Shown here piece by piece: positions 1,966 through 55,200 of a stretch of 64,000 nt of DNA (its first letter is position 1; each line of letters begins with the position of its first letter). The notes under the pieces were generated by a model. That model did no database searches, had not been told where the DNA came from, and worked only from the letters and a program-made list of their open reading frames with translations. The position numbers and the translations under genes are program-made. Source of the DNA: Cinnamomum chago (taxonomy: Eukaryota > Streptophyta > Magnoliopsida > Laurales > Lauraceae); contig CP142453.1 in assembly GCA_038049695.1 (NCBI GenBank), positions 18,542,001-18,606,000 of the forward strand, given 5' to 3'.

Positions 1966-1970
1966 GTACC

Positions 1971-2440: not shown

Positions 2441-2475
<35 letters not shown>

Positions 2476-4613: not shown

Positions 4614-4718
4614 GGTGTGGCCTAGTTCGTACACCAAATAAAGTTACACATACCATTAGATCATCATGTTTGAAAACTATAATTATATGTTTAATGCACG
4701 ATAATCTAATATATACTA

Positions 4719-5556
4719 TGTGTGGGGCAATTCTTGAGACGCCAAAGTTATGCTAAGTCCAGCAATAATGCCAGTTTTTCTTATACTCATTTCGGCTACG
4801 TGCATTTCAGCTCGGATGTTAATGCGCTAGCCGAGACCAACATTATCGCCTCGGTCAACCCTGACATAAGGTCACCACGATCTCGGCCTTGTGCCTTGGC
4901 CTAAGTCGCGCATCTCGGCCGCAGCTGTATGATGACCTGCCAACTGAGACAGGCACTGACAGTTATGTCCCACCTTCGAACACGTGGCAGAATACAAGCA
5001 CGCACTGATGGGACAGATACACCATCCCAGCCGTCCAGAATCCTTATCAAATCCCTGACAAAGCGGCATCCAACGACTACTGCCATATCAGGGCATGGCC
5101 CAAGAAAGGATTCAATGAGACCTTTGCCGCCAACAAGTCAAGACAAGATCAGGCCCAATGTAACTGGCATTTAATGCAATATGGGTTGATCGGACCAACA
5201 TTTAATGCAATGTGGGTTATGATGGATCCTCATTAATTACTTTGCGGGCTGATGAGACCTTAGCAGTCAAATCATTAGGCTCATTATCAAGTATCTAGAG
5301 ACTTTGCTCCTATAAAGAGAATATCAATCCAAACCAGGTACGCAGGCACACGCTCTCCCAGCCGTTACTTTGTCTCTCTCCTTCTTCAACCTCAGCCTCT
5401 GCACTAACTTAGGCATCGAAGAGCTCTGCGCTGCCCACAGTCAGGGTCCTCTGATTGTTCTTTCTCCCCTTTTAGGTCCCTGGAGCAGCTGGCTTTTCAC
5501 AGTCATTTGGATAAGTCCTCCCTCCAGTCTTGTGAGTTGCATTTTTCACACTTAGA
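4719..5556 (+). mobile_element. Solo LTR, Ty3/gypsy (Tat-like) type, second copy
   Basis: The sequence starts TGTGTGGGG like the LTR at 1300, ends near CACACTTAGA and shares the 3' block (ACTAACTTAGGCATCGAAGAG, with GCGCTGCCCACAGTCAGGG after it). The paralogous segment at 44265-44285 lacks it. The flanks TACTA (4714-4718) and TATTA (5557-5561) are an imperfect 5-bp target duplication, so this copy looks older than the one at 1300. It has no internal region or coding sequence. Confidence 0.78.
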
Positions 5557-6062
5557 TATTATATATTAAGTTGATTAAGTGTGAAAAAATACAACTATAT
5601 TTAATGCACGATGTTCTAGGTACATGTTACTTCATTCAAAATGAGATTTAGATTATTACACATGCATGAAGAGATTTGACATATGAGAGTTGGATTGGAC
5701 AAAGTAAAGCGGTAGAAATATAAAACTAGATAAAAATAGGTGTTAGCCGCCCTAAATCGATCACTACTGTAGACTGTAGTGCACCGGTGCTTGCAGGAAA
5801 GAATCATTTCATTTCCCATTAAATAATGGGTTGGTGAGACCCTTTTACGTTTCAATGATGCAAAAAGATTATAAAAAAAATTAGTAATGACAATTTGACG
5901 ACTTCAAGTACGTGTCCAGATACATTGGAAAAACCTTTTAGACTCGTTCAATGAGACGATTTCACACTCCCATGGAATTTTTTTAATTTTATCGCTTGAG
6001 AAAGTGCTGTATTCTTACGTCTCTTATGAGAAACAAATTCCTATCTAATGAGGAATATCCGT

Positions 6063-6293
6063 TTATTTCCCTTTTCTATGAGACAAATATATACACCAAT
6101 CAATAGATTGGTGAGCTGTGCGGGAGATCAACACGATTTTTCCCTCAATCATAGAATCAACTAGTCGGGCTTGTAAAAAAAAGGAAAAATGAACCGATTT
6201 ATCCCAATAAAGAGGATTTGGACATTTTATGGTAGAGGTAGGAGTCCCGCCGGATTTCTGTTTTTCAAAGAAATAGAAATCAATAAAGCACAT
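6063..6293 (-). other. Minus-strand open frame shared with copy 2 of the duplicated segment (unknown)
   Basis: A 76-codon open frame here corresponds to an open frame at 44755-45036 in the other copy. By eye the two translations differ at 10 of 76 positions (about 87% identical), with the core IKCPNPLYWDKSVHF kept. I do not recognise the product. It may be a remnant of an older element rather than a gene: there is no clear start context, splice structure or domain. It is recorded because it stays open in both copies while their surroundings have diverged. Confidence 0.25.
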
Positions 6294-6525
6294 AAATTCG
6301 CTCGTCGTGCAAACAAGTTCTTAGATTGAATTGATATTCTTCCAAGGAATATGAGACCCATTCTAGGCACATGTTAAAAAGACCCATAGTTTAAGTGTTT
6401 ATATAAAAGAAAAATACAAGTGCTTACTCCGAAGACTGATATCTTTGTGAAAAGCGATTCCTTAGATACGATTTCTTAAATGTCTTATTTGGAGAAGGAT
6501 CCAAGGAAATTTTAATTTCTTTTCA

Positions 6526-6636
6526 ATGAAATCGAAGACTTGGTCATCATCTTTGAATGTTGAGTTTCATCATGTGCTTCAGTCGGGCAATGACATGGCG
6601 GATGCTTGGCTAAGTTACAGGTGGAAAGAGATGTAA
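6526..6636 (+). pseudogene. LINE-type RNase H C-terminal remnant
   Basis: A 37-codon frame ends with FHHVLQSGNDMADAWLS, matching the pattern H(V)xRxxNxxADxLA at the end of the RNase H domain found after reverse transcriptase in many plant LINEs. The same remnant is in copy 2 of the segment (45203-45295). Only the domain end is recognisable. No reverse transcriptase is seen upstream. It is read as an old LINE 3' end carried along in the duplicated segment. Confidence 0.55.
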
Positions 6637-7116
6637 CTTTACTTGCTTCTTTGTAATTTATTGTTTTCTATTGGCATTTAGCTTTAATACTCACGCAGGT
6701 TTTTTTCCTTAATAAATAGCTGCAACAGGTGATCTGATTCAAATTAAAATATAACAGCAAAAAGAAGTATTGCGTGCGCCATGTGCTGGTTTAATTGCAA
6801 ACCAATCACAGGTGTTTTCAAGACGCGATGCATGATGTATATTAGCCTTGTTACTCATATTCACTATTAATTTCTTCCTTTGTTTAAGATCACCTATTTT
6901 TGTCATCGTGTAGATGGCACCTGGCACTTATGGCCATAGGTCAAGTTAAATGGGCGGCCTGTTCCCACACTCTGATTATGGTGTTTTCGTGTAATTCGCT
7001 ATGTAACAAAATAGAATTCATTAAGAAACAGAGGAATACCCTGTACAAGAGAACAAAACCAAAGAAATAAAGCAAGCCAAAAGGAGAAATGACAACAAAA
7101 TTAGCACTTCCTTGAA

Positions 7117-18234: not shown

Positions 18235-20874
18235 CTACTGAACCTTCACCCAATGAATGGTTCGGTTCCGGAGCACCTGCTCCTTGGTATCGATGATAGC
18301 AACTGGTCTAGCGACGTACGAAGCATCTGGCTGGATGTTGAGGGGTTGATGATAAAGAATGTGCGAAGGATCCTCCACGTGCTTCTTCAGCATAGAGAGG
18401 TGGAACACATCATGCACTCCTGATAGCTCTGGCGGTAGCTGAAGCTTGTAAGCGACGTCTCCAATCCTCGATCTGATCTCGAAGGGCCCGACGTATCTTC
18501 GTGCTAACTTGCCCTTCTCGCCAAATCTGAGGGTGCCTCGAGTTGGGGAAACCTTTAAGAAGACCTTATCTCCCTTCTGAAACTCGAGTGGTCTGTGCCG
18601 GTTGTCTGCATAGCTCTTCTGTTGGCTGCGGCTGACCTTAAGGTTCTCGACTATCTGTTGAACCTTATCGCTGGTGTCGCTGACTATGGAAGGTCCATGG
18701 AAACTCCTGACGCCAACTTCTTCCCAACAGATTGGGGTCTTGCATCTCCTCCCGTATAGAGCCTCGAACGGTACCATCTTGATGCTCGCATGGTAGCTGT
18801 TGTTGTAGGCGAACTCGCAAAACGGTAAGGAGTCCTCCCAATTCTCCTTGTAGTCCAAGACACAAGCTCTCAACATGTCCTCCAATGTCTGGTTGGTACG
18901 CTCGGTCTGTCCGTCTGTCTGTGGATGATAAGCGGTGCTGAAACTCAACTTAGTGCCCAAGGCCTGCTGCAGACTCTCCCAGAAATGAGAAGTGAAACGC
19001 GGGTCTCTGTCCGAAACAATCGAAGCTGGAACTCCGTACAACGAAATAATCCTATCCACATACAGCTTAGCAAGGACATCGAGTCCTGCTCTCATCGAAA
19101 CTGGCAAGAAGTGAGCTGACTTAGTCAGTCGATCCACAATCACCCAAATGCCGTCGTGGCGTCTCCTGGTAACTGGGAGTCCAGCGATGAAGTCCATGCT
19201 GATATGCTCTCATTTCCACTGAGGTATGTCGAGCTGATGAAGTAGTCCTAGCGGCTTCTGATGCTCGACCTTGATCTGCAGACACGCCAAATACCTGGAG
19301 ACATAACGGGCTATCTCTTTCTTCATGTTGTTCCACCAGTAGTAGCTCCTCGGGTTCTGGTACATCTTGGTGCTGCCGGGGTGAATCGAGTATCTGCTAT
19401 GATGCGCATCTGCGAGGATCTCGTCCTTTAGCTCCTGAATATCCGGCACGCACAATCGGTCATGATAGTAGAGTACTCCACCAATCAGTCTGAACTCTAG
19501 CCTCTGGTCAATCTGCTCGATCACTCTAACAAGCTTTGGATCGTTGCGTTGACTATCCTTGACCTTGCCTAGCAACTCTGGTTCCCATGCGGACATGGTA
19601 GCAAGCAAGACTCTCTCGCTGAGCGGCTGAAACCGAACGTCTAAGCTGCTGAAGACATCGATCCACACACCCTCTACTGCTAGAAAACTGACAAGGGCAG
19701 TCTTCCTGCTCAAAGCGTCTGCTACGACATTCGCCTTACCCGGATGGTATTTAATAGGGAAGTCGTAATACTTGATGTACTCCATCCATTTTTTCTGTCG
19801 ATTGTTGAGGTCGTTCTGAGTGAACAGGTACTGCAAACTGCGATGGTCTGAGTGCACTTCAAATCTCTCGCCATAGAGGTAGTGCCACCACAAATTCAAA
19901 GCAAAAACGACCGCTGCAAGCTCCAGGTCGTGAGTAGCATACTTCTCGTGCTCTTTCAACTGGCCCGATCCATAGGCAATGGCTTTCCCTTCCTGCATCA
20001 AGACACAACCAAGACCGGTTCCTGAAACGTCAGTGAAGACTACGAATCCACCGTTACCAGTAGGTAGAGACAAGATCGGTGCTGTCGTCAATCTCTCCTT
20101 CAGCTCTTGGAAGTTGTTCTCACAAGCATCGGACCAAACGAACGGTACATCCTTCTGTGTCAGCTTGGTCAACGGGGCTGAAATCGTGGAGAAGCTCTTG
20201 ACGAACCTGCGATAATAGCCTGCTAAGCCGAGAAAACTCCGAATCTCCGTGGCATTCTTCGGTCTCGCCCAGTTCGTCACTGCTTCTATCTTCGCTGGGT
20301 CCACTGTTAATCCGTCCTTTGAGATGATATGTCCGAGGAAGACTACTTGCTCCAACCAAAACTCGCACTTGCTGAGCTTCGCGTACAGCTGGTTGTCGCG
20401 CAACAACTGTAGAGACGTCCTTAAATGCTGCTCGTGCTCCTCCCTGGTCTTGGAGTAGACCAAAACATCGTCGATGAACACCACTGTGAAGCTATCGAGG
20501 TACAGAATGAAGATCTTGTTCATTAGGGACATGAACACTGCTGGTACATTCGTCAATTCGAACGGCATCACAAGGAACTCATAGTGGCCATAGAGCGAAC
20601 GAAACGCTGTCTTCTGCACATCCTGCTCTCTGACTCGCAACTGATGGAATCCCGATCTCAAGTCTATCTTCGAAAAGAACTGCGCACCCTGAAGCTGGTC
20701 GAAGAGCTCGTCGATACGAGGAAGAGGATGCTTCTTCTTCACTGTTGCCTGGTTCAGTTGTCGATAGTCAATGCACATCATCATCGATCCATCCTTCTTC
20801 TTCACGAAGAGCACTGGTGCGCCCCATGGCGACACGCTCGGCCTGATGGAGCCTTTGTCTAGCAACTCCTCCAA
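18235..20874 (-). pseudogene. Chromovirus pol region (RT, RNase H, integrase), fossil
   Basis: The minus-strand frames at 19210-20874 and 18235-19197 carry, in order, the reverse transcriptase with FIDDVLVYS, RNase H, an integrase zinc-binding region and the integrase catalytic core with [17 protein letters not shown]. The match to Ty3/gypsy pol is strong. The region is broken and is not a host gene. Confidence 0.9.
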
Positions 20875-24459: not shown

Positions 24460-24773
24460 TGTTAATTAGTATGGCTCACTATTAATTAGTAAGTTTTGAC
24501 TAACCGGGCTCTTGGATTGCCCAAGTTGTACTGTGATTAGAAGTAGGCCTATCATAGTAAGTCTACTGAGATTAGAAGTAGGGTTTGAGTGTAACAGGGT
24601 TTGGGGTTGATATTATAAATAGAGACCCAGAGTCTCTATGATGTACACATAACTATTCTAATTGCATAGTGACTCTCCTGTCTACCCCGTGGACGTAGGC
24701 CAAAAGTCGAACCACTTAAATCTCGTATTCTCTGTGCGTGATTGATCTCTTCTCGTAGCCCTATATCACAACA
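24460..24773 (+). repeat. 5' LTR of the copia element
   Basis: This 314-bp LTR has a TATAAATAG motif near 24617 as the likely promoter element and ends CACAACA. The initiator-Met-type primer-binding site follows after AAC. Confidence 0.9.
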
Positions 24774-25407
24774 AACTGGTATCAAAGCATTTTGGTGTGA
24801 TCGGAAGAGATTCGACGGATCGGATCTCAGAAGGCTTGATCGGAGAAGGGTGGACGTCAGATCGTGGAAAGATCTGATTGGTGGGTCACGATTGTCTAAG
24901 AAATCGAAGAGGAGAAACAGAGAAGGGTTTCAGCGATCTGGTTTTTTTTTTTTCGTGTCCGGCTGGGCCCGAAATCGTCGCCGGAACCGTCGCCCGTTGT
25001 TGCGCGTCGCTGGCGCCCGTGCTGCGTCGTTCCGTTGCCGGAGTGAGGAAGGAAGAAGACCAGAAGAATTTTCCTTTGGTTCTATTACAGAACGTGACAT
25101 GGGGAAGAAGACCCATCATTTGGGTCGTTCAAGTTCTGGGTCAAGTTCAGCTCGGCCCAACCAGGCGAAGCCCAGTAGCAGAAAAGTCCAGGTTGGGCCA
25201 GTCCAGGTATGACCCAACCCGCGTGCAGCAAGGCGCTGACGTCATCGCTGATGTCATCACGGTACAATCAACGACAGATTTGACCAAAATCAACGGCTGA
25301 AATTGTTTTCGCGATATCTTGACGATCTGGAGTCTGATTTAAGATTCGTTTAAACCTACGGACTTGTCTCGAGGAGATCTACGCAGGTGTAGTGAAAGAT
25401 CTGCGGA

Positions 25408-26445
25408 ATGGCTACTAAATTTGAGATTGAAAAATTCGACGGAAATAATGACTTCGGTCTATGGTGTTTGAAGATGCACGCTTTGCTGGTTCAAAATGAT
25501 TTGCAAAAAGCTTTGAAAGGAAAGAATGCTTTGTCTGAAAAACCGTCAGATGAAGAGAATGATGAGTTACTGGAGAAGGCGTATGGTCAAATTCTGCTAT
25601 TTTTTAGTGATGGTGTACTGCGAAAAGTTGTTCAGGAGAAAACTGTTGCTAGCATATAGCAGAAATTGGAGAACTTGTACATCACGAAGTCTCTCACAAA
25701 TCGCTTGTACCTGAGGAAGCAATTGTTCACCTTACAAATGCAGGAAGGTACGTCTGTCTCAACCCATCTTGATTCTTTTACGTTAGCTATTTTGGATCTT
25801 GAAAATATAGATGTTCATATTGATGATGAGGACCAAACTATAATGTTGCTCTGCTCTTTACCACCCTCGTATGAGAACTTTGTTGATACCATGATGTATG
25901 GTAGAGAAACTCTTTCTGAGGAAGATGTTGAGTCAGGCTTGAACTCTAAGGAGTTAAAGAAAAAGGTTGCCACTGAAAATACTAACAATTCTGGTGAGGG
26001 TTTGGTAGCACGTGGCAGATCAAAGAAGAGAGAGCAGAATAGAAGAGGCCGATCTAGGTCAAAATCAAAAACTAGAAAATTAAAGTGCTTCAAATGTCAC
26101 AAGGAATGACACTTTAGAAAAGATTGTCCAGAGCGAAAAGGGAAGGAGAAATCTGATTCTGGAGAAATGGCCGGAGTTGCAACCGAAGCAACAAAGAGTA
26201 ATTCTGATAGTGCAGAAGTTCTTTCGGTTACTATTTGTAGCTCAACTACTGAGTGGATTATTGATTCGGGGTGTTCCTATCATATGTGTCCTTACAGAGA
26301 TTGGTTTACCAATTATCAATCAATTGATGGTGGTAAAGTGCTTATGGGAAATAATGCAGCCTGTAAGGTTGTTGGGATAGGTGCAATCAAAATTAAGATG
26401 TATGACAGTATTGTGAGAACTTTGTCAGATGTTAGGCATGTCTAG
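25408..26445 (+). pseudogene. Copia gag and protease region, fossil
   Basis: The region opens with MATKFEIEKFDGNNDFGLW, the usual gag start of this copia lineage, then shows a basic stretch, a zinc-knuckle-type CFKCHK segment and the protease motif [11 protein letters not shown]. It belongs to the element at 24460-33801 and is broken. Confidence 0.88.
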
Positions 26446-26744
26446 AGTTGAAGAAAAATCTGATTTCCTTGGGTACGCTTGACTCCAACAGTTGTACCTA
26501 CAAAGCTAGAGGTGGAGTTATGAGAATTTCGAATGGTGCTCTTGTAGTAATGAAGGGACTGAAGCAGAATGACCTTTACTTTCTTAAAGGTAGTACAATT
26601 ACAGGTGCTGCAGCTGTGTCGTCCTCAAATTCAGATTTAGAAACTACCAAGTTATGGCAAATGCTGCTTGGGCAAATGAGTGAGAGAGGTTTGGATGAGT
26701 TGACTAAACACGGCTTGCTGTGTGGTCAGAAAATAGGAAAGCTG

Positions 26745-29700
26745 GACTTTTGTGAGCATTGTGTCTTCGGAAAGCAGTATAGGGTCAAGTTCAGGACAGC
26801 TATTCATCGAACCAAAGGTACTTTGGATTACATCCACTCTGATCTTTGGGGTCCCTCTCCTGTTCCGTCTCTTGGTGGCGGTTTATACATGTTGACTTTC
26901 ATTGATGAATATTCTCGTAAAGGTCTGGGTGTATATCTTAAAGCACAAATATAAAGCTTTTGCGCAGTTCAAGCAATGGAAGACTATGATTTAAAAGCAG
27001 TCAGGTAAACAAATCAAGCGCTTGAGAACTGACAACGGCTTGGAATTCTGTAATAGTGCTTTTAATGAGTTCTGCAAGAATGAAGGGATTGTGAGACATC
27101 GCACAGTCCGGCATACATCGCAACAGAACGGAGTTGCAAAACGGATGAACATGACTATTTTAGTGAAGACCCAGTGCATTTTCTTCAATGCAGGGTTACC
27201 AAGGAAGTTATGGGCGGAAGCTGTTAACACAGCTTGTTATCTGATTAACTGGTCTCCATCAACGGCTATAGAATGTAAAACTCCTACAAAGGTATGGTCT
27301 GGATCTCCTGCTGATTACACCAACTTGTGGATATCTGATTGTCCTGCTTATGCTCATGTGAATGATGAAAAGCTTGAATGTAGGGCAAGAAAGTGCATAT
27401 TTCTAGGATATGCAGATGGTGTGAAAGGATATAGGTTGTGGTGCCTAGATGGAAAATCTCTCAAATGCATTATAAGTAGAGATGTGACCTTTGATGAGTC
27501 TGCTATGTTCAAACCGAAGGAGTGTCATGATGTTGGAAACAAAAATGATGTCAGTAAAAAGGTGGAGGATAAAGACGGTGGTGTCAGTAAACAGGTGGAG
27601 CTTGAGAAGGAAACTTCAGGAAACTTGCAGGATAAGGTGCAAGCAGATGTCCCAGTTCGACAGGATGTAGAGGAGATGCAAAGCTCAAATGAGGAAACTT
27701 TAGTTCCAAATGATTACATGCTTACCAGGGACAGAGAGAGGAGGCAGATTAAGGAACCTCAGAGATACGGGTATGAAGATATTGTTGCCTACGCTCCTAA
27801 TACAGCTGAGAGTATTGAGTCAGAGCCGGTTACATATCGGAATGTCGCCACTAGCAAAGAATCAACAAGATGGGGTGTAGCCATGGGTGAGGAGATTGAA
27901 ACTCTTCACAAAAATCAAACTTGGGAGCTGGTAAAACCTCCGAAAGGCCAAAAGATTGTTGGTTGTAAATGGGTCTTCAAGAAAAAGGAAGGAACTCCAG
28001 GGGTGGAAGATGCTAGGTTCAAAGCACGACTGGTTGCAAAAGGCTATACTCAGAGGGAGGGTGTTAACTTCAATGAAGTGTTGACTTTTGTGAGCATTGT
28101 GTCTTCGGAAAGCAGTATAGGGTCAAGTTCAGGACAGCTATTCATCGAACCAAAGGTACTTTGGATTACATCCACTCTGATCTTTGGGGTCCCTCTCCTG
28201 TTCCGTCTCTTGGTGGCGGTTTATACATGTTGACTTTCATTGATGAATATTCTCGTAAAGGTCTGGGTGTATATCTTAAAGCACAAATATAAAGCTTTTG
28301 CGCAGTTCAAGCAATGGAAGACTATGATTTAAAAGCAGTCAGGTAAACAAATCAAGCGCTTGAGAACTGACAACGGCTTGGAATTCTGTAATAGTGCTTT
28401 TAATGAGTTCTGCAAGAATGAAGGGATTGTGAGACATCGCACAGTCCGGCATACATCGCAACAGAACGGAGTTGCAAAACGGATGAACATGACTATTTTA
28501 GTGAAGACCCAGTGCATTTTCTTCAATGCAGGGTTACCAAGGAAGTTATGGGCGGAAGCTGTTAACACAGCTTGTTATCTGATTAACTGGTCTCCATCAA
28601 CGGCTATAGAATGTAAAACTCCTACAAAGGTATGGTCTGGATCTCCTGCTGATTACACCAACTTGTGGATATCTGATTGTCCTGCTTATGCTCATGTGAA
28701 TGATGAAAAGCTTGAATGTAGGGCAAGAAAGTGCATATTTCTAGGATATGCAGATGGTGTGAAAGGATATAGGTTGTGGTGCCTAGATGGAAAATCTCTC
28801 AAATGCATTATAAGTAGAGATGTGACCTTTGATGAGTCTGCTATGTTCAAACCGAAGGAGTGTCATGATGTTGGAAACAAAAATGATGTCAGTAAAAAGG
28901 TGGAGGATAAAGACGGTGGTGTCAGTAAACAGGTGGAGCTTGAGAAGGAAACTTCAGGAAACTTGCAGGATAAGGTGCAAGCAGATGTCCCAGTTCGACA
29001 GGATGTAGAGGAGATGCAAAGCTCAAATGAGGAAACTTTAGTTCCAAATGATTACATGCTTACCAGGGACAGAGAGAGGAGGCAGATTAAGGAACCTCAG
29101 AGATACGGGTATGAAGATATTGTTGCCTACGCTCCTAATACAGCTGAGAGTATTGAGTCAGAGCCGGTTACATATCGGAATGTCGCCACTAGCAAAGAAT
29201 CAACAAGATGGGGTGTAGCCATGGGTGAGGAGATTGAAACTCTTCACAAAAATCAAACTTGGGAGCTGGTAAAACCTCCGAAAGGCCAAAAGATTGTTGG
29301 TTGTAAATGGGTCTTCAAGAAAAAGGAAGGAACTCCAGGGGTGGAAGATGCTAGGTTCAAAGCACGACTGGTTGCAAAAGGCTATACTCAGAGGGAGGGT
29401 GTTAACTTCAATGAAGTGTTGACTTTTGTGAGCATTGTGTCTTCGGAAAGCAGTATAGGGTCAAGTTCAGGACAGCTATTCATCGAACCAAAGGTACTTT
29501 GGATTACATCCACTCTGATCTTTGGGGTCCCTCTCCTGTTCCGTCTCTTGGTGGCGGTTTATACATGTTGACTTTCATTGATGAATATTCTCGTAAAGGT
29601 CTGGGTGTATATCTTAAAGCACAAATATAAAGCTTTTGCGCAGTTCAAGCAATGGAAGACTATGATTTAAAAGCAGTCAGGTAAACAAATCAAGCGCTTG

Positions 29701-32096
29701 AGAACTGACAACGGCTTGGAATTCTGTAATAGTGCTTTTAATGAGTTCTGCAAGAATGAAGGGATTGTGAGACATCGCACAGTCCGGCATACATCGCAAC
29801 AGAACGGAGTTGCAAAACGGATGAACATGACTATTTTAGTGAAGACCCAGTGCATTTTCTTCAATGCAGGGTTACCAAGGAAGTTATGGGCGGAAGCTGT
29901 TAACACAGCTTGTTATCTGATTAACTGGTCTCCATCAACGGCTATAGAATGTAAAACTCCTACAAAGGTATGGTCTGGATCTCCTGCTGATTACACCAAC
30001 TTGTGGATATCTGATTGTCCTGCTTATGCTCATGTGAATGATGAAAAGCTTGAATGTAGGGCAAGAAAGTGCATATTTCTAGGATATGCAGATGGTGTGA
30101 AAGGATATAGGTTGTGGTGCCTAGATGGAAAATCTCTCAAATGCATTATAAGTAGAGATGTGACCTTTGATGAGTCTGCTATGTTCAAACCGAAGGAGTG
30201 TCATGATGTTGGAAACAAAAATGATGTCAGTAAAAAGGTGGAGGATAAAGACGGTGGTGTCAGTAAACAGGTGGAGCTTGAGAAGGAAACTTCAGGAAAC
30301 TTGCAGGATAAGGTGCAAGCAGATGTCCCAGTTCGACAGGATGTAGAGGAGATGCAAAGCTCAAATGAGGAAACTTTAGTTCCAAATGATTACATGCTTA
30401 CCAGGGACAGAGAGAGGAGGCAGATTAAGGAACCTCAGAGATACGGGTATGAAGATATTGTTGCCTACGCTCCTAATACAGCTGAGAGTATTGAGTCAGA
30501 GCCGGTTACATATCGGAATGTCGCCACTAGCAAAGAATCAACAAGATGGGGTGTAGCCATGGGTGAGGAGATTGAAACTCTTCACAAAAATCAAACTTGG
30601 GAGCTGGTAAAACCTCCGAAAGGCCAAAAGATTGTTGGTTGTAAATGGGTCTTCAAGAAAAAGGAAGGAACTCCAGGGGTGGAAGATGCTAGGTTCAAAG
30701 CACGACTGGTTGCAAAAGGCTATACTCAGAGGGAGGGTGTTAACTTCAATGAAGTGTTGACTTTTGTGAGCATTGTGTCTTCGGAAAGCAGTATAGGGTC
30801 AAGTTCAGGACAGCTATTCATCGAACCAAAGGTACTTTGGATTACATCCACTCTGATCTTTGGGGTCCCTCTCCTGTTCCGTCTCTTGGTGGCGGTTTAT
30901 ACATGTTGACTTTCATTGATGAATATTCTCGTAAAGGTCTGGGTGTATATCTTAAAGCACAAATATAAAGCTTTTGCGCAGTTCAAGCAATGGAAGACTA
31001 TGATTTAAAAGCAGTCAGGTAAACAAATCAAGCGCTTGAGAACTGACAACGGCTTGGAATTCTGTAATAGTGCTTTTAATGAGTTCTGCAAGAATGAAGG
31101 GATTGTGAGACATCGCACAGTCCGGCATACATCGCAACAGAACGGAGTTGCAAAACGGATGAACATGACTATTTTAGTGAAGACCCAGTGCATTTTCTTC
31201 AATGCAGGGTTACCAAGGAAGTTATGGGCGGAAGCTGTTAACACAGCTTGTTATCTGATTAACTGGTCTCCATCAACGGCTATAGAATGTAAAACTCCTA
31301 CAAAGGTATGGTCTGGATCTCCTGCTGATTACACCAACTTGTGGATATCTGATTGTCCTGCTTATGCTCATGTGAATGATGAAAAGCTTGAATGTAGGGC
31401 AAGAAAGTGCATATTTCTAGGATATGCAGATGGTGTGAAAGGATATAGGTTGTGGTGCCTAGATGGAAAATCTCTCAAATGCATTATAAGTAGAGATGTG
31501 ACCTTTGATGAGTCTGCTATGTTCAAACCGAAGGAGTGTCATGATGTTGGAAACAAAAATGATGTCAGTAAAAAGGTGGAGGATAAAGACGGTGGTGTCA
31601 GTAAACAGGTGGAGCTTGAGAAGGAAACTTCAGGAAACTTGCAGGATAAGGTGCAAGCAGATGTCCCAGTTCGACAGGATGTAGAGGAGATGCAAAGCTC
31701 AAATGAGGAAACTTTAGTTCCAAATGATTACATGCTTACCAGGGACAGAGAGAGGAGGCAGATTAAGGAACCTCAGAGATACGGGTATGAAGATATTGTT
31801 GCCTACGCTCCTAATACAGCTGAGAGTATTGAGTCAGAGCCGGTTACATATCGGAATGTCGCCACTAGCAAAGAATCAACAAGATGGGGTGTAGCCATGG
31901 GTGAGGAGATTGAAACTCTTCACAAAAATCAAACTTGGGAGCTGGTAAAACCTCCGAAAGGCCAAAAGATTGTTGGTTGTAAATGGGTCTTCAAGAAAAA
32001 GGAAGGAACTCCAGGGGTGGAAGATGCTAGGTTCAAAGCACGACTGGTTGCAAAAGGCTATACTCAGAGGGAGGGTGTTAACTTCAATGAAGTGTT
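26745..32096 (+). repeat. Four tandem copies of a 1338-bp block within copia pol
   Basis: The block starts GACTTTTGTGAGCATTG and ends AACTTCAATGAAGTGTT. Copies start at 26745, 28083, 29421 and 30759, and the fourth ends at 32096, where the normal RT sequence (CTCTCCTGTAATG) resumes. The spacing is exactly 1338 bp each time. I noticed no difference between copies on reading, and the predicted translations of the shared part are identical. The three internal junctions are the same, pointing to one founding duplication followed by amplification, or to an assembly artefact. Confidence 0.95.
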
Positions 32097-33407
32097 CTCT
32101 CCTGTAATGAAACATAGTTCTATCCGGGTGCTACTTGCTATGATTGCTAAATTGAATTTAGAATTGGAGCAGCTTGATGTCAAGATTGCGTTTTTACATG
32201 GTCAGCTAGATGAACAGATTTATATGCATCAATCAGAGGGGTTTGAAATTCATGGAAAGGAAGACCATGTATGTTTGCTGAAGAAATCATTGTATGGCCT
32301 AAAGCAGTCTCCTAGGCAATGGTACAAGCGTTTCGATACCTTTATGGTTGGAAACGATTATTGCAGGAGTGCATATGATAGTTGTGTCTATCACAAGAAG
32401 CACTCAAATGGCTCATATGTCTATGTGTTGTTATATGTTGATGATATGTTGATTGCTGCAAAGGACATATCTGAGATCAACAAGTTAAAAGCTCAGTTAA
32501 ATGGTGAACTTGAGATGAAGGACTTAGGTGCTGCAAAGAAAATTTTTGGAATGGAGATACAAAGGGACCGGAAAGCGGGCAAATTGTTTTTGTCACAAAA
32601 GGGGTACCTTGAGAAGGTTTTAGAGCGCTTTGGTATGCAAAGTTTGAAACTTGTAAACACTACATTGGCAGCTCATTTCAAACTTTCTACTGCTTTATCA
32701 CCACAAACTGAGGAAGAGGTGGAGCACATGTCTCGTGTTCCTTATGCTATGCAGTTGGGAGTATCATGTATGCTATGGTTTGCACGAGGCCGAGTATTTC
32801 TCAAGCGGTTAGTGTAGTTAGCAGATACATGGATAACCCCAGGAAGGCTCATTGGCAGGCAGTGAAATGGATACTCCGTTACTTGAAAGGTACTACTGAT
32901 ATTGGGTTAGTGTATGACAGAAGCAACAACACTTCTGGAAGTGTTATTAGATATGTTGATTCAGATTTTGCTGGAGATTTAGACAGAAGAAGGTCCTTGA
33001 CAGGTTATGTCTTCACTTTTGCTAGCGGTGTCATTAGTTGGAAGGCAGCATTGCAATCCAAAACTGTCTTGTTTACCACTGAAGCAGAATATATGGCAGC
33101 TACAGAGGCAGTGAAGAAAGCTATTTGGCTGACAGGCTTGGTTGGAGATCTAGGATTGGAACAGAAGCTGACAATTGTTTTCTGTGACAGTCAGAGTGCG
33201 ATCGATCTAACATACAATCCTAAGTATCATGAAAAGACCAAACACATTGATGTTAGGGCACACTTCATTCGAGATGTCATCGCCGATGGTGCTATTGAAA
33301 TGGTTAAGATTGCTGCGGCGGAAAATCCAGCAGACATGATGACCAAGACTATTCCAGCAGTCAAGTTCAAGCATTGCTTGGACTTGATCAATGTGGTCAA
33401 TACCTGA
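32097..33407 (+). pseudogene. Copia reverse transcriptase (rest) and RNase H, fossil
   Basis: Downstream of the repeated block the RT continues with the YVDDMLIAA active-site motif, LYGLKQSPRQWY and the connection to RNase H (TEAEYMAATEAVKKAIWL, HIDVRAHFIRD). These are standard copia pol blocks. The region is part of the broken element. Confidence 0.9.
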
Positions 33408-33487: not shown

Positions 33488-33801
33488 TGTTAATTAGTAT
33501 GGCTCATTATTAATTAGTAAGTCTTGGCTAACCGAGCTCCTAGATTGCCCAAGTTGTACTGTGATTAGAAGTAGGCCTATCATAGTAAGTCTACTAAGAT
33601 TAGAAGTAGGGTTTGGGTGTAACAGGGTTTCGGGTTGATATTATAAATAGAGACCCAGAGTCTCTATGATGTACACACAACTATTCTGATTATATAGTGA
33701 TTCTCCTGTCTTCCCCGTGGACGTAGGCCAAAAGCCGAACCACGTAAATCTCGTGTTCTCTGTGCGTGATTGATCTCTTCTCGTAGCCCTAGATCACAAC
33801 A
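33488..33801 (+). repeat. 3' LTR of the copia element
   Basis: This is 314 bp, the same length as the 5' LTR, with about 19 substitutions between them. The bases following it (AAC then a T tract) do not repeat the five bases before the 5' LTR. Confidence 0.9.
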
Positions 33802-33983: not shown

Positions 33984-36519
33984 TGTCAAGACCCGGGCCC
34001 GAATTACGATAACCCCGGGCCATGAGTCCATACTTACTCCCGTGAACTCCGAATTAACCGAAGTTAAAATGGAATCCACAAGGGATAACATCTTCAATAA
34101 ACCTGTCAAATACACAATATTGCGGAAACACATATATTTGACAACATCAAATCTCGATTTACATGTATACAAAAGAATAAGGTCCTTATACATGTATCAT
34201 TCCCATCATTTTCTTGTCAATCGGTGTATACCCAAAACACCATACAGTAACAATTAATTACATTCCAAAATGGTTAACAAAATAACTTTTCAAAACATTT
34301 CTCAAAATATTATAATTCTTTCGCGCGCTCGAATACCCATGTCAAATGGTATTCCGTCCGTTTCATTCCTTCAGTCCTTCTGGAGGAACCGGAGCGGTCT
34401 CCTCCGTTGGCGCCGGGGGCGCTGCTGCATCGGCAATGGCAAACGAGCATGTGATGTCATCAATAACACTAATGAACACGATGGTTCAACAATGTATAAA
34501 CAGATCTTGTAATAGCACATGTTAATACATATACTGAGTTCATTAAATTCATTTGGTAACAATTACCATTCTGGACAAATCTAGATAATTCCTACGATGA
34601 CAATAGGTAAATATAAGAGTTGATCAATAGACATTTACAAGATAATCACTATCATAGGTTTCATTCATTCATTTCATTTCATTTCATTTACCATCTTCCT
34701 TCAAAGGAAGGATTCATCTTCCAAATGGAAGGCATCAATCAATATCCATAGATATGACCGGAATATGTGGGACTTACTAGTGTCCGGGCCAGGGACAACT
34801 AACATCACCACAGAGCTCCGGAACGCCCCCAAATCCATCTACTGCAGTTGGATTATTCATTTCATTGTTACCTTTAGTAACTGTTCATTCATTAACTCAA
34901 TCATTTATTGTATTGTTCAGTTTAACTCAGTAATGAGATTAAGGAATCACTAAGTAGTGTCAGATTCTGAAATCGCACCACATCTATTAATTCTATTCAA
35001 GTTAACAATCAAAATTTATACACCAAACAAAAGGGTGAAACGCTTGTTATTTAATGTTGTGTTATTCTTGATGAACATCACTTTGATAGTAGTTTGTACA
35101 TTCAAATAACATTAGCTAACACCTATGCAGGTTTAGATAACACATTGAAGAATTAAGACTTAACTCGTTACCGTTCATTTCCTTTAATTTCCTTAATCTT
35201 GATAATCTTAGATTAGGGCATAATTAGCTCTAACACTAATTTATAGACCACTAATACTCATAGAAAACATAATTGGTTCCACAAAATACCAATTTCAACC
35301 TCCTTCGATCGATTGGACCGAAGGTCCGATCGATCGGCCTGAAATCATATCTCAGTTACGGACTGTCCGATCGATCGGTCTGTATGTCCGATCGATCGGA
35401 TCGAAAAACCTCTCAGTTAAATGTCAGTCCGATCGATCGGACTGTAATCCGATCGATCGGCCCTGAGACAAGTTGCAGGTCCGAAACCTGATTTTTCTCT
35501 CCCCCTTCCTTTCTCCATTCATTTCATTCACAGCCTGCATTAAACATTAGAACCTCTTGTTCCCTCCTCATACACCATTCATCCACAACAATACTTCTAA
35601 TCATTCATTACCCATCTTAATCATTCACAAACAATTCCATAGTTTCATGGAAATTTACAAGAATCCATGAAAACTCTATACATTTTTACAATGATTAACA
35701 CTAATCACAAGAAATGTTTATACTTGCCTTTCTTGGAGCCTAGTTAACTCAAAGCCCTTTGTTTAGCTTGCTTTGAGATGAAAACCCCCAAATGGAACCC
35801 TAACTCCATGAAAACACAAAATACACAAATCTATAAGCCATTTGTGCTAGAAATCATGCCTAAGCACTCCTTATGACTTGTAAACTCATTAAAAACTCCA
35901 AGCACTTACTTGTAGTTCAACTAGAGGAGCCCCTAGCTTTAATGAAGAGAGATTTGCACTTCCTCTCCAATGAACCAAAAGGGAAGGTGAAGAAGATGAA
36001 GATGGTGAAGCTAGCACCCCTTCAATCACACTTACAAACTCCCTTCTTGATGCTTGATAAGGAAAATGGAAGAAGATGAGAGGAATGAGTCTAGGGTTTG
36101 GTTGAAATGAGGAAATGAATCATTCCATTCTAATATAAGACTCTCTTACACAAAAACTATCTTTTAATAAGTCAAATGAAGTCTCATTTGGTCCATTTGA
36201 GGTCAAATGGAGTCGCGTCTATTATAAAAATTAATGTACTACTCGAGATATACGCGTTGGTATCAAGGATTTTTGTATTTGACGAAATACGTGAAAAATC
36301 GTATTTACGGAAAAGTCCTTGGCCTACCTTGTTTGAGTCTAAACTCACTTTAACCAATTCAATTCATCTTAGTCCATTCTATCATGCTTAATGCATCATT
36401 TGAGACTAATTTCTCTCTCTTTGGTCATTAACCTTCATTAATACGATTATTCATGCTTAATCAGCATTAATCCAAATTAATTAGCCTTAATCGTGATTAG
36501 TTTGGGTCGGGGTGTAACA
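33984..36519 (-). mobile_element. Solo LTR of a Ty3/gypsy (Tekay/Del-like) element, 2.5 kb
   Basis: The sequence is bounded by TGTCAAGACCCGGGCCC and GGGTCGGGGTGTAACA and flanked by TTTGT (33979-33983) and TTTGC (36520-36524), a 5-bp duplication with one mismatch. On the minus strand its start (TGTTACACCCCGACCC) resembles the start of the chromovirus LTR at 18098 (TGTGAGACCCCACCCC). Both contain an ATTGCGGAA motif at about the same distance from the other end. No pol sequence is attached. A palindrome array occupies 35303-35465. Confidence 0.78.
35303..35465. repeat. Array of 12-bp palindromes CCGATCGATCGG
   Basis: Five exact copies of CCGATCGATCGG and one degenerate copy (TTCGATCGATTGG) lie within about 160 bp. 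They are spaced irregularly and separated by AT-rich stretches, some sharing CTCAGTTA. The array lies in the central part of the solo LTR, the same relative place as the GGTCGACC/GAGCTC array in the chromovirus LTR. Confidence 0.95.
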
Positions 36520-37637: not shown

Positions 37638-39395
37638 TCAGCTTGTTGCTGGCCAAAGAAATTGGTTGACTACATGTTCGAAATTCTTGAAAGACGACCC
37701 CCCTGGTTTAGTAGCAATCTCAGCAAGGTCCTTCCACTCCATAGCCTTGTTCCTCATCTCCTTCCCCTTTTCTCCCTCCATCATCTCCCTCACAAGGCCC
37801 TCCACCTCATCTCTCTTCACATTGTTGTCGATCTCCATGCCCATCCCCCACTCGGTGCAGGCATATCGGCAGTTGGTTTGCTGCTCGGCGAAGAAAGGCC
37901 AACAGATAACAGGCACTCCACCACATACACTCTCCAGTGTCGAGTTCCACCCGCAATGCGTCAAGAACACTCCAATTGAAGGGTGTTGAAGCACCTTCTC
38001 TTGCTGGCACCAGCTCGCAAGCAGACCCCTCTCTTCAGTCGCCTTCACAAACTTCGGCGGCAGCATCGCCGAACTGCCCATGACAAGGTCTGGCCTTGTG
38101 ATCCACAAGAAGGGGTGGTTGCTGTTTGCCAGCCCCCATGCAAACTCCTCGAGCTGTTTCTCTGTCATGACTGTAATACTACCAAAATTGACGAATACCA
38201 CTGATTTGGGGTCCTTGTTTTCTAGCCACTCCAGACATTTTGAGTCCTCTTTCCACAAATTCGACCCCAAAGAGTCCGAAGCGCTCTTTGGGAATTGGTT
38301 AGAGAGGGTGTTGAGTGGGCCTATAGTGTAAAAGTTAGGGAACATGGCCTTGAGAGCGTCTAAGGCCGTGTGTTCGAAGTCGTCAAAAGTGTTCATGACC
38401 ACCGCCAGTCCTTTGGTTGCTCTTTGAGTTTCTCTGATGAAGAAGTTGAGCATGATATCATTGGGGTCTGTTGTCCGGATAAACGATGGGATGTCCCTCA
38501 GATGGATACCATCCATCCCTCGAATCCAATCGATGGGCATGTCTAGAGATCCATTTGTTAAGAAGTTCTCATCTGCGCACCAGAGTAGAGCGAGTAAATA
38601 TTAGTTAACTAGGCTATTGTTTGTTCAAGCACAATCAATCACATACCCAAAATCAGTGAGTTCTTTTAATTTGTCCTTTGTTAAACACCTTTATTTTTAA
38701 CTTCAATTGTAAAATGCCTCTTGGTGAATTAATATTTTTAGAACGACGTATAATCAAAATGTGCAGCATCATCCAATTTGTGTTGATTTCAAATTTTTGT
38801 TAAGAACATGTTGAAAGCATCTAAAATATAAGATTATTTTCTTCACCCTCACTCAAGTGAAGTGATGATGGTGAGAAGGTGCGACTACTACCTTTAAAAG
38901 GGATGATTTCATTCTCAACAAGTTGCTGATAATGGATATAGGCCAAGAACCCACAAGCGCTGGGTGTCCAAAACAACACCTCAGGAATCCCAAGCTCTTC
39001 TGCTGCATCTAAGGTGAAGCTCATGACCCCATCTGAGATGATGCATCTGATTTTAGGCACCCCAACAGTGCTATTGATCTTTACAATAAGATCTCGAAAC
39101 GGCACAGTGCAGTTTTTGCTGGTGGATTCGCAGAGAGCTGGGACGTCTTGGGTCGCATCGCGATCCGACGGCGGGAGGCCATCGGGTATGGTTTCGAACC
39201 GGAAATCATCCAGGCCCTTGAGGGAATCTGGTCCTCTGGACCTCAACAGACGGTTGTGATTGAATTCAGTGTTGACGTATGTGATGAAGAAGCCTCTGGC
39301 ATGGAGAAGCTTGGCTAGTTTGAGAATGGGTGTGACATGGCCTTGAGCTGGGTATGGAACGCAGATGAGATGAGGCCTGTCCACATGCTCAGAAC

Positions 39396-41956: not shown

Positions 41957-44900
41957 ATTTTTTAATAGCCACTAGACCCTGCCACACACTCCTTCCCCTC
42001 CTCTCTCTCTATATGAAACCCATCTAATCATTACCTTTCTACTTTTGGGTTGAAAGCAAAAGTGATGCGTTCTAAACCCATGGGAGTAGGATAATCTAAT
42101 GGAATAATCAGCACACAAATTGAGCTTTATTTGAGTGCTACATACCGTTTTCTTTAGCCACCCTGTGAGACTCTTTGTAATCACTCCAACTTGCTCACAC
42201 TCACTGTATCCCCATAAATTGGCATATCAAAATATGCAATAATTCGAATAATACTCATTGTTGGATTGATTTTCATAAAAAGTATAACTCAAAAAATCTT
42301 TAAAAGTGGACCCCGCTGTATGAAATGTAATCAATTCCAATCAAGGGTCCTTGTGTGGCGGACACAACTATAATATGATGGGTTAAGATTTTCACCGAGT
42401 TATCAATCAATCATGTGTCCATGCGCATGGAGTCCCTTTTCATGATAGGAAGGTTTTCACCTACGAGCAATCAAAATATTGTGATATGTAATTCAGCTCG
42501 TGGGAGCCACTTGGGTGTATTACTATCATTTGGGAGTAGGATAAATGAAAAGTCCCCTTTACGACAAGGCTCATGAAAAAATTAGCCCTATTAACTTACC
42601 CTAGTTCTAGATTGAATTACAGCCATGAAGTTTGAATGGTTCTTTCCCATAAATTTTGTTGAGATTCAATCTAATTGTCAATAAAGCTTTGATGAACAAG
42701 AACTTGGGCATTGTACCAAATTAAGAGAGATGAGCGATGGGAGCGTGAAAATAACTACATTGATCAAAGTTAGCCCAAAGTTTGGCCCTATAGAGTTGGA
42801 CAGACAAAACTCCATTTGATGATAAATAGTGAATGTCGATCTTCATCTCAGCAAAGTAAAGAGGTAAATCAATCAAAAAAGAGAAAGCTGTGAGACTGAT
42901 GAGGGTGGATCGAGGTCACATCTTTTCAAGTTGATGTCGGTCACGGGAGGGTTCCTTTTTCAAGTTGTTAAAAATTACATGACCCTTTCATTAAAAAAAC
43001 TCATATATATAAATATATATATATATATATACAAAAAAAAGTTTGCCTTTGTCTTACAGGACTATTCAGTTGATAGGTTTTTTGTCTTTTATATTTTTTG
43101 ACTCATTCATGTGACAGCTATTTGATTCAGAGTTTATTTTTTACCCTTTGCTTTAAGTAAATAACCAATATTTTTACCAAAAAAATAAAATAAATAACCA
43201 ATAGATCAATGAATGTGTCCCATAAGGGTTGGTTGTTGGAACTTTTGGAAAGGTGGGCCCGCACCTTTGGCAAAGGACAAAACCATGAGGCTTGAACTAA
43301 TAAGGGTGAAGGGTTCAAGTGGGAGAGAGAAGGAAAGCATAGCCAAAGAGGACGTATAGTGGAATTGGGTTAGGATTGATGAAAACATTAGTCCGGTTTC
43401 CATATTTGGTCCAAACAGGATATAAGGGGTGCCACATGGGAAGTAAAAAAAGAAAATTTAAGTGGAGGAGTCTCCTCCACATGTGGCGCCGGTCCAAACA
43501 GGGAAAATGGGGTATCCTCTTCCTAGTCTTGTAGTCCATTCTTTTCCTATTTGTACATTACCCACTTTAGTTGAAGTGATTGAAACTATAATAGATAGGA
43601 CATCACTCTACAAGATTCTAAATTGATATGATGTTTGAGAGTAACCCGTGTGTTAATTAGAATCCCATCAGTTCCTTTGTGGGAGAGAAATCTAAATTTT
43701 GAAATTGCTACTTCCAAGTAGAATCGTCTAAATGCTCAAATACAATCCACTGATATGAAACCGAAATTTGGAGAATTTTTGAAGGCCAAAAATAATATTT
43801 CAGAAGGCTACATTCTTAGAATTTCACTAACCAAACATGAAATTCCAAATGATAGGGAGCAATTGGCATTGCAATCAAAATTAATTACTCTTCTTATTTT
43901 GGGAGGGAGAGTAGTAAAAGGCAACACCAATTTTATTTATTTTTCAATGGAGAGTATCTTTTTTTTTTCCTTCTAAATAGCAAAGTATATTGAATAAAAG
44001 AATAAAGAGTATCCTTTAAATTATAATTGGCTGAGTTTATTAATATTTAGAATGAAATTACACAAATTTTCTATGTTACAAGACTACCTCATGTTATTCC
44101 ACACATGCATACGCATGGATCACTAGGGCTTACCTTTGCTCATATTAAATGGATCCCTTTACATGGGTGTGGCCCAGTTCGTACACCAAATAAAGTTACA
44201 CATACCATTAGATCATCATGTTTGAAAACTATAATTATATGTTTAATGCACGATAATCTAACATATACTATTAAGTTGATTGCGTGAAAAACATACAACT
44301 ATATCTAATGCACGATGTTCTAGGTACATGTGACTTCATTCAAAATGAGATTTAGATTATTACAAATGCATGAAGAGATTTGACATAAGAGAGTTAGATT
44401 GGACAAAATAAAGCAGTAGAAATATAAAAGTAACTAGATATAAATAGGTGTTAGCAGCCCTAAATCGATCACTACTGTAGTGCACCGGTGCTTGCAGGAA
44501 AGAATCATTTCATTTTGTCCTTGGTGAGATCCTTTCATGTTTCAATGATGCAAAAAGATTATAAAAAATTAGTAATGACAAGTTGACGACTTCAAGTACG
44601 TGTCCAGATACATTGGAAACACCTTTTAGACTCGTTCAATGAGACGATTTCACACTCCCATGGATTTTTTTTTATTTTATTTTATCGCTTGAGACAGTGC
44701 TGTATTCTTACGTCTCTTATGAGAAACAAATTCCTATCAATGAGGAATATCCGTTTATTTCCCTTTTCTATGAGACAAATATATACACCAATCAATAGAT
44801 TGGTGAGCCGTACGGGAGATCGAAACGATTTTTCTCTCAATCATAGAATCAGCTAGTCGGACTTGTAAAAAAAAGTAAAAATGAACCGATTTATCCCAAT

Positions 44901-45393
44901 AAAGAGGATTTGGACATTTTATGGAAGAGGTAGGAGTGCCCCCGGATTTCTCTTTTCCAAATAAATAGAAATCAATAAAGTACATAAATTTGCTCGTCTG
45001 CAAACAAGTCCTCAGATTGAATTGATATTCTTCCAAGGAATATGAGACTCATTCTAGGCACATGTTAAAAAGGCCCATAGTTTAAGTGTTTATATAAAAG
45101 AAAAATACAAGTGCTTACTCCGAAGTCTGATATCTCTGTGAAAAGCGATTCCTTAGATGTCTTGTTTGGAGAAGGGTCTATGAAAATTTCAATTTCTTTT
45201 CAATGAAATCAAAGATTTGGTCATCATTTTTTAATGTTGAGTTTCATCATGTGCTTCAGTCGGGCAATAACATGGCGGATGCTTGGCTAAATTGAGTGTG
45301 GAAAGAGATCATGTAGAGCTTTACTTGCTCATTTGTAATTAATTTATTGTTTTCTAATGGCATTTAGCTTTAATACCTAAAAAGGTTTTTTCT
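41957..45393 (+). repeat. Degenerate duplicated segment, copy 2 (uninterrupted)
   Basis: This copy is collinear with 532-6700 but has none of its five insertions. It has an extra stretch of about 140 bp (roughly 43388-43535) with the palindrome GGAGGAGTCTCCTCC. It also carries the LINE RNase H remnant (45203-45295) and the unidentified minus-strand frame (44755-45036). By eye, identity to copy 1 in shared parts is about 90% or more. There is no intact gene. Confidence 0.85.
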
Positions 45394-52228: not shown

Positions 52229-55200
52229 TCATTGTTGGCTCCCGTGTCTATCTGCATGAATTTCCATTTGCTGCACCTGTCCCTTCTTCTGTTGTGAGTA
52301 CTGAGTCCCAGTCGTTTGTTCTTCTGTCGGAGAGTCTCGCCTGTTGTCTCTGAGCTTCCCAGACTTTGCGATTGCAAGAATAAGATCAAGCTGTTTCTGT
52401 TGCTGCTCCTATAAATGCCAAGCAGAGGAATTAAAGTGAAGAGCTAAAGTGCATGGAACCAACACTTATTATCAAAATTCCATCCAATGAATAAAAGATA
52501 ATATTTGCTAACATTTGTTTCCATCAACACTAATTATCAAAACTCTTTCCAATGAATAAAAGATGATATTTGCTAACATTTGTTTTCAACAACAATGGCT
52601 GATTTGATAAGCCGGATCCCTTCAAAAACATCAAGTGGTTACCTAAAAACATAGGAATACCGAATATTCACTAGAACCAGTAAAAACAGCTTACAATTAT
52701 CTAAATATGACAACAGATCAAACTTCCATTTCAGATTTGTGTTCGGATACTTGGACATGTGCTATTTAACGTGCATATCTATAACCTTCACAGAGAGTTG
52801 AAATCACAGTTCTGTTGATCCTGCTGAAAGGGATAAACTGGGCCATCCATCTGCGAAACATGCCACAAATCACAATGCACATGCCTTCAACAACTGTTTC
52901 AATCAATACCTACAAAGATTAAGTGCCCACAACCAATGTTTTAAAAACTGGACAGGACCAGCTGGTTCGAGTCAGACTGGAATGGACACCTCTACTGTAT
53001 CAGACTCCTTGGCCCCTTTCCCCACATTCACTGGCTCCTGGCAGGGCAGAAAACAGCTGCCACATCGATCAGTGACTGAGGACTGGCAATGGGCTGCAAA
53101 CCTGCTGCAACATGCAGGTATGATTGTCTTCTTCTTCTTAGATTGTTGCTAAGTTTCTACATGGTAATAAGTATACAATGTTTAACATCCTCACAGCACA
53201 AGGAGCTGCTAAGATAGTAATCGACATAAGAGGAGATGTAAATTAGAATGGATTGGAGAGGAAGGGCAGTAGAAGGTTACTTGCTATGGTTTCTGATGCA
53301 GAGTGGATGTTTATTTTTAGTAACTTCTTAATTTTATTGTAATTAGGATTAGTATGCTGATTTATTTGGTTTCCTAGTTTGATTAGGATACTTTCTATTA
53401 TTAGATTAGGTTTTCTTCGGCCCTAAGTTACTTTGCCTGTTTATATTACAATGTAGAGATAATAATCTCATATTTGGAATTGAGTAAAAATTGAGATTTT
53501 CCCTTGGAGAGGTTTTCCTTGTATTAGAAATTTCTGCGAAGATAATTTGAGGTGTCTTTGACACGTGCTTCGGCATCTACGCAAGCCCTAACCCTAGGGC
53601 CTGCATCAGTTGGTATCAGAGCGAAGATCCACGTCGCTCCGATCCATCTCCGGTCACCGATCGGAACATAGCCATTGTCCATCCCCACTACCATCACGCC
53701 CAACCCTTGCACAAACCAAACCCCCCTTCTCCAACAATAACCCCCCCTATACCGGAACCCATCTTTCCAGAATCCAGACCCATCCCAGTCGAAACCCACC
53801 CAAACTCCATTGTCTTCATCACACCCTAGTGCCTCAATCCACATCGGCAAATAACCCATTGCTGCAGCCCCAGACTCAGCCCCATCACCCACCGTCTCCC
53901 AGAACCCCAACGACACCCACTCCACCGTCCTTCCAAAACCTGAACCACCAAATCCCACCAAAAAAAAAAAAAAAGAACAAGAAGAAAAAGATTGTAGCAG
54001 AGAGGGAAAAAAAAAACAAAGAAGAAGTGGGAAGAAGAAGAGAAGAGGAAGGAGGACCATACCATACACCGAGGAGCAATTGTCGTCACTGCCTATTGCC
54101 ACTGCCCATCGATGTTGTCGCCACCGCTCGCCATCATCAGCCTCGCACCATCTTTGCCGAATTGCCAGCCTCATCGTCACCGGAACTTCTTCTGGGTTTT
54201 CTCCTCTACGTTGCAGCCAACAAGTAATCTCATTCTCTTCTGCACAAAGTCCAAGGCAACAAAAAGAGAGTTTGTCTTGCACCCACGTGTTTAGTTCAAA
54301 CACTCCTTGTTAGCCCGACTTGGATATAGCCCAGGTTGATCTGACCCGTTTGTGCTTAAAGCCCATTCTCATCAGCAGATTTCAGTCCACGCTAATTTTT
54401 TTAGATCGACGGCCAGAATTTTTTTCGCGATATCAGCGTCATCCGCCGTCAGATTTCAAATCCGTTTTTGCCAGTGTGATCGTGGAGAGCAGATCTAAAC
54501 ATTAGGTTAGTCAGAAATTTTTTTAAAACAAAAAATGCCTCCCAAGAAACAAGTAGAAGTGGAGTCTTCCTCTCATAATGATGATGATTTGAGGGGAACC
54601 GTTGTGGAATTATCAGCAAATGTTAATCAACTATCCGCAATGATGGTTCAATGCAAGACACTCTTGCAAGGATTGAAACCCAATTAACTACTTTTGAAAC
54701 TAATCGGCGTGAGGATAATCATCGAGCGAATGGAGGACATAATCAGAATCAACGAGACCCACATGCAATCAATATTGATCGTGATTTGGGTATTAAGCTT
54801 GTGATTCCCGAATATGATGGAAAGTTGAAACCAAAGGAATTCATAGATTGGTTAGTGTGTTGAAAATATTTTTGCACACAAGCCAATGACGGATGGTAAT
54901 AAGGTCACCTTAGTGGCAACTCGATTGTGCAATTATGCTGCGATTTAGTGGACCGAGTTGCAAAAGAAAAGAAGAAATCAAAATATTGACCCCGTTGAAA
55001 CATGGATCGAGATGAAGAATTTGTTGAAGCAAAAATTCCTCCCTGTAAATTATTCCAGAGATCTTCGTTCAAGTTTTCAAGATTTGAAACAAGGTTCCAA
55101 AACTGTTATTGAGTATTTTGAGGAATTCCTAACCATGCAAGCTCGATGTGGCTTGAATGAAGATGATGTGTTGGTTGATCGATATTTTCATGGGCTGCGA

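Follow-up and report, generated by a model that had tools for sequence, protein, structure and literature searches.

The 64,000-nucleotide stretch of the Cinnamomum chago genome analysed here (hereafter the window), which a search of the plant's own genome places at C3:18542001-18606000 of a 1.06-Gb assembly in 14 contigs, harbours a decayed Ty1/copia-type long terminal repeat (LTR) retrotransposon with a tandem array in its coding region. Positions 26745-32096 comprise exactly four head-to-tail copies of a 1338-bp unit, 5352 bp in all, as found both by self-matching at a fixed lag and by comparison of the cut copies. The array is a retrotransposon-derived tandem repeat whose monomer stems wholly from one parental element, the parts of which are, in order:

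24460..24773, + strand: 5' LTR, TG...CA, 314 bp (94% match to the 3' LTR)
24777..24789, + strand: primer-binding-site-like sequence, 3 bp past the 5' LTR (read directly), perhaps akin to the initiator-tRNA-Met type of primer site
25408..26442, + strand: decayed gag and protease region with two in-frame stops (Pfam Retrotran_gag_2 and Pol_BBD)
26436..26744, + strand: single-copy 5' part of the pre-integrase region (gag_pre-integrs match in the open reading frame (ORF) 26436-26951)
26745..28082, + strand: tandem unit copy 1, comprising the gag_pre-integrs tail, integrase, an SH3-like domain and the first approximately 57 residues of RVT_2 (self-match, domain search)
28075..28090, + strand: novel junction 16-mer, a blunt join, the same at 29413-29428 and 30751-30766 (edge comparison, genome search)
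28083..29420, + strand: tandem unit copy 2, identical (self-match)
29421..30758, + strand: tandem unit copy 3, identical (self-match)
30759..32096, + strand: tandem unit copy 4, identical, continuing into the remaining reverse transcriptase (self-match, domain search)
32097..33404, + strand: single-copy rest of the reverse transcriptase (RVT_2) and the next ORF, with a frame change (Pfam RVT_2, reading frames)
33488..33801, + strand: 3' LTR, 314 bp (LTR pair)

The window matches itself without mismatch at a lag of 1338 over positions 26745-30758 (4014 bases, or 3 x 1338), and the set of four cut copies collapses to a single sequence; exact periodicity over 4 kb rules out chance. No further repeat of 100% identity appears in the self-BLAST of the window (30 rows, E up to 1e-8), and an Rfam scan of the window gave no matches. 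An earlier reading made from the letters alone (the sequence-only reading) had described four identical 1338-bp copies with identical junctions in an element whose LTRs differ at about 19 of 314 positions, and both descriptions are borne out by the counts. That reading had also held that copies as diverged as the LTRs would overturn it; LTR-like divergence predicts about 80 differences per copy pair, and none is observed.

The edges of the array are equally sharp. On the left, ...AGCTG is followed by GACTTTTG, and on the right, ...GAAGTGTT gives way to CTCTCC, while each of the three internal junctions joins GAAGTGTT directly to GACTTTTG. The native edges at the breakpoints have no bases in common, and this accounts for both the whole number of copies and the blunt join. 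Over a wider span the edges are not markedly alike: 15 of 40 positions agree at the register of the join, and across 13 offsets the number ranges from 7 to 16. Hairpins at the breakpoints were considered and set aside, as the longest stems measure 5 and 6 bp and a set of 200 random places most often gives 6. The genome-wide search for the junction that the sequence-only reading had proposed was run with the exact 16-mer, free of mismatches, and returned five matches in the 1.06-Gb genome, three of them in the array and two in unrelated sequence. For one of the latter, BLAST at E 1e-3 aligns nothing at the locus with the window; for the other, the locus matches the window only at an unrelated repeat, 1973-2137. 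A control with the reversed junction pattern gave one genome match, so the two off-array matches are unremarkable and look like chance. Among viral contigs, neither a relative of the protein encoded at 31036-32814 nor the 24-base junction pattern was found.

The host element is assigned to the Ty1/copia type by its domain order, its RVT_2 domain and its LTR pair. Between the LTRs the domains run Retrotran_gag_2, Pol_BBD, gag_pre-integrs, integrase fragment, SH3 and RVT_2, the match to the integrase core (rve) falling under the Pfam cut-off (E 0.0025); the ORF that follows RVT_2 has no Pfam match and is taken as RNase H by its position. Within copia the element may belong to a Tork/Tnt1-like lineage. 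It is a broken element, bearing the two in-frame stops of the gag-protease region together with changes of open frame, and the unit itself carries one frame change and one stop, neither of which varies among the four copies. Alignment to the integrase of PDB 7z0h (E 0.00012), which is taken to be that of Ty1, shows an active-site residue replaced in the unit, presumably the third acidic residue of the integrase active site. At each junction the reverse transcriptase frame enters the unit out of the integrase frame, and thus the array encodes no extended pol protein. No effect of the array on the plant is evident, and no search aimed at one was made.

The family to which the host element belongs is multicopy in the genome. 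Scoring covered 40 of 459 first-look unit candidates and 40 of 1130 LTR candidates. Among the matches listed the unit has 43, four of which are the array itself; the 39 elsewhere, at 90-94% identity, are dispersed over 12 contigs, by eye with no pair less than 400 kb apart. For 26 of these 39 scored relatives the locus was retrieved with 1.5-kb flanks. The unit is single in every one of the 26, with both window-homologous flanks adjoining it to within 4 bases; the aligned unit measures 1337 in 21 of them and 1324-1336 in the other five, and none of the 26 is a stand-alone unit. The flanks of several relatives are truncated or broken further out (L022, for example, retains 120 bp of upstream flank). 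In another (L016:810-1118), an inverted segment of approximately 309 bp that matches the downstream region of the host adjoins the upstream flank, a rearranged or nested insertion. The LTR ends of most sampled relatives are identical or similar to those of the host, and of the LTRs scored the closest to the host's own is C2:44263542-44263855 (L057, L061), with 14 differences from the 5' LTR and 9 from the 3' LTR. The element on C2 was also tried as a second array and rejected, as its 3.1-kb piece consists of 285 bp of the unit end joined to the downstream flank, without the upstream flank.

Comparison with the 26 relatives reveals how the host element decayed. Substitutions private to the host number 23 of 1338 in the unit and 43 of 2645 in the flanks (21 of 1337 upstream and 22 of 1308 downstream; Fisher p 0.90), and a 27th, partial, relative leaves the count for the unit at 23. 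As these rates are equal in unit and flanks, the unit decayed at the pace of a single copy. All 23 unit-private substitutions are present in all four copies, whose common source was therefore one insertion that had decayed beforehand. The in-frame stop of the unit is absent from each of the 26 relatives.

The LTRs provide the clock for the insertion itself. The pair differs at 19 of 314 positions without gaps (15 transitions and 4 transversions), a Kimura two-parameter (K2P) distance of 0.064, or 0.063 on a 316-bp cut. At all 19 positions one LTR holds the commonest base of 22 other LTRs, placing 12 changes in the 5' LTR and 7 in the 3' LTR; this indicates that the differences are probably independent changes after insertion, in LTRs that would have been identical when the element inserted. 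A stricter rule, by which the state must be absent from every one of the 20 LTR pieces of ten relatives, yields 5 and 4 private changes and leaves 10 of the 19 undecided, so that the 12:7 split leans on the commonest states. Derivation of the two host LTRs from two different elements, raised by the C2 LTR matching the 5' LTR at 96% as against the 94% of its own 3' partner, was rejected, given that the C2 LTR has the commonest base at all 19 positions. Of ten relatives sampled, eight have LTR pairs with K2P distances of 0.010-0.071 (L014 kept at 289 sites, L018 and L033 set aside as truncated, at 36 sites and 0.120, and 184 sites and 0.075, respectively), and the host is among the older insertions sampled.

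Substitution rates of 7e-9 or 1.3e-8 per site per year would place the insertion at about 4.5 or 2.4 million years, respectively. The complete lack of copy-specific differences in 5352 bases confines the common ancestor of the copies to within approximately 1.8-3.5% of the LTR age, and to within 3-6% of the private branch (95% limits in each case), both bounds varying with the shape of the copy tree; at the same rates this ancestor is younger than roughly 40-160 thousand years. By these two measures the copies probably originated, or underwent their latest homogenisation, during roughly the final 2-6% of the insertion's life. The claim of the sequence-only reading that amplification, or the last homogenisation, came far later than insertion is thus upheld, both by the LTR changes that followed insertion and by the 23 private substitutions that predate the copies' ancestor.

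The explanation that best accounts for the whole, and in which good confidence is placed, is a late chromosomal tandem duplication within a decayed single-copy insertion, followed by growth to four copies. A member of a multicopy Ty1/copia-type family would have inserted, turned inactive and decayed as a single-copy insertion; very recently, the 1338-bp stretch from the late pre-integrase to the early reverse transcriptase region would have been duplicated on the chromosome rather than in the course of reverse transcription. The first duplication would have been a non-homologous join without microhomology, either of the end-joining type or by template switch at fork repair, and two adjacent identical 1338-bp copies could then have become four by unequal crossing-over or conversion, with either sister chromatids or homologues as the partners. 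The route of repair, the count of steps and the presence of four copies in the plant itself are inferred here; it is from the join alone that end joining without microhomology is taken to have come first. The simplest order is insertion, single-copy decay and then array, which speaks against the element having brought the duplication with it, barring later homogenisation; a blunt duplication with subsequent unequal crossing-over of identical 1.3-kb neighbours requires no new process.

Several points weigh against this explanation. Older copies that were recently homogenised would account for the identity equally well, and the number of copies, four, comes from the assembly alone and is unproven. 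As scoring covered 40 unit and 40 LTR candidates and the junction was searched as an exact match, the family may elsewhere hold arrays that have a different breakpoint or a junction altered by mutation. The integrase active-site replacement is not strictly private, as one of the 25 readable relatives has it and 24 do not. The host also has a poor target-site duplication, GACCT / AACTT, with only 3 of 5 bases alike, where the ten sampled relatives include seven with perfect 5-bp duplications, one with 4 of 5 and two that are unscorable because the 5' piece is truncated; decay, or the loss of one flank by recombination, could explain this, and the assignment of the LTR changes to either side gives no hint of a chimera.

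The likelihoods given to the rival explanations overlap with one another and with that of late duplication, and do not partition the possibilities. The sequence-only reading had allowed for an assembly error. Such an error could have multiplied one or two real copies, erased real differences between copies in polishing, or shortened a longer array to four. A looped graph path or over-polishing could produce copies that agree perfectly over 5.35 kb and come in a whole number, and over-polishing could have masked differences between copies, which would weaken the dating; moreover, the sizes of C1-C5 and C8-C10 are all multiples of 2,500 bases, which is odd for natural contigs and suggests scaffolds or perhaps padding. 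Nevertheless, a false graph join normally needs some common sequence and the joined ends here have not a base in common, so the junction is probably present in the reads, and the whole copy number follows automatically from such a join. The window is also free of N, the 1.06 Gb lie in 14 contigs, and no other 100% repeat emerged in the self-BLAST. An artefact is accordingly thought unlikely, above all as the origin of the junction, whereas the doubt over the copy number stands. Homogenisation, the other alternative of that reading, has a late form that fits the data and is indistinguishable from late expansion, since no copy differs. Its older form, in which gene conversion or unequal crossing-over has kept the copies of an array alike almost from the time of insertion, is distinctly unlikely. 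On neutral grounds, steady homogenisation would likewise be expected to leave private substitutions common to all copies, with unit and flank decayed to the same degree, but it demands lifelong maintenance, a very high exchange rate and zero transitional differences in four copies, where late expansion is simpler. The array is also absent from the 26 relatives, but these are other insertions and cannot date the host.

Duplication by template switching in reverse transcription, before or at insertion, is known in principle for retroelements, yet is so improbable here that it was rejected. Its copies should differ as the LTRs do, by about 80 per pair, and lesions private to the insertion should not be common to all of them, as they are; it would in addition need later homogenisation, and none of the 26 relatives has the array. 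A gain in one step differs from late duplication only in how growth occurred, through rolling-circle copying of an excised 1338-bp circle with homologous re-insertion, or through multi-copy fork repair. A single event of this kind would yield several identical units with one junction type, and identical copies cannot separate it from unequal exchange; there is no direct sign of it, however, and no free unit among the 26 relatives, and it is given little probability.

The sequence-only reading had further proposed an early satellite, a designation that is not supported for an array of four copies and 5352 bp at the one locus found, with its exact junction in no other element and a single unit in all 26 relatives. 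That it is nonetheless a satellite at birth, still growing and varying in copy number among individuals, seeded from copia coding sequence by one blunt join, seems doubtful.

Elsewhere in the window, a Ty3/gypsy-type element on the minus strand (18238-20874) encodes reverse transcriptase, RNase H, the zinc-binding domain of integrase and a Tf2-type SH3 domain in two long open frames, and 37641-38600, also on the minus strand, holds part of a UDP-glycosyltransferase gene, either a fragment or an exon (Pfam UDPGT, E 1.1e-25). A 318-bp direct repeat of 96% identity (53294-53611 and 56196-56513) flanks a gag/zinc-knuckle ORF at 54949-56145, perhaps a short non-autonomous LTR element. Positions 538-6705 and 41957-45391 are collinear dispersed repeats of approximately 79-98% identity, the former lengthened by additional sequence, and imperfect repeats at 35306-35460 are rich in the palindrome CGATCGATCG.

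The first steps in the birth of a tandem repeat are, in our judgement, seldom caught before divergence. The value of this locus lies in a pre-duplication state kept in 26 of 26 relatives, in exact breakpoints and in a timing bounded by two comparisons, so that the frequency with which such arrays expand or disappear could be tested cleanly here. LTR elements are already known to give rise to tandem arrays, many of them from LTR or untranslated region (UTR) sequence. Narrow literature searches returned no paper on arrays from copia integrase-reverse transcriptase coding sequence, and wider absence from print is not claimed.

Among the known systems, Cassandra arrays likewise consist of near-identical tandem retroelement units, whose number is proposed to change later through unequal crossing-over, although their unit is an LTR plus the internal domain of a small non-autonomous element (PMC7215508). 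The Ogre-derived satellites of Lathyrus sativus resemble the present case in that short arrays within LTR elements are read as satellite seeds, but those arrays lie downstream of gag-pol and recur in many elements, whereas here a single element and its coding sequence are involved (PMC7004042). Coding sequence of an element as the source of a repeat is exemplified by rye E3900, from the gag ORF (reviewed in PMC9659126). Table 1 of that review gives gag, ORF2 of a long interspersed nuclear element (LINE) and CACTA transposase as the ORF cases, along with human minisatellites from any region, and does not name copia integrase or reverse transcriptase as a source; the conclusion drawn there is that repeats can come from every part of an element. 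A further parallel is offered by CRM1TR and CRM4TR of maize, tandem arrays from a retrotransposon, the latter with a monomer of 1369-1391 bp that is similar in size to the unit described here (PMC3648361). In these, too, the whole array stems from one retrotransposon with local homogenisation, and the splice also lacks short direct repeats, for which the authors discuss atypical non-homologous joining (PMC3648361). They differ in their LTR-UTR source, their tens of monomers, variants among them, and their (peri)centromeric loci (PMC3648361), whereas the array in C. chago is built of integrase-reverse transcriptase coding sequence, in four identical copies that lie inside both LTRs.

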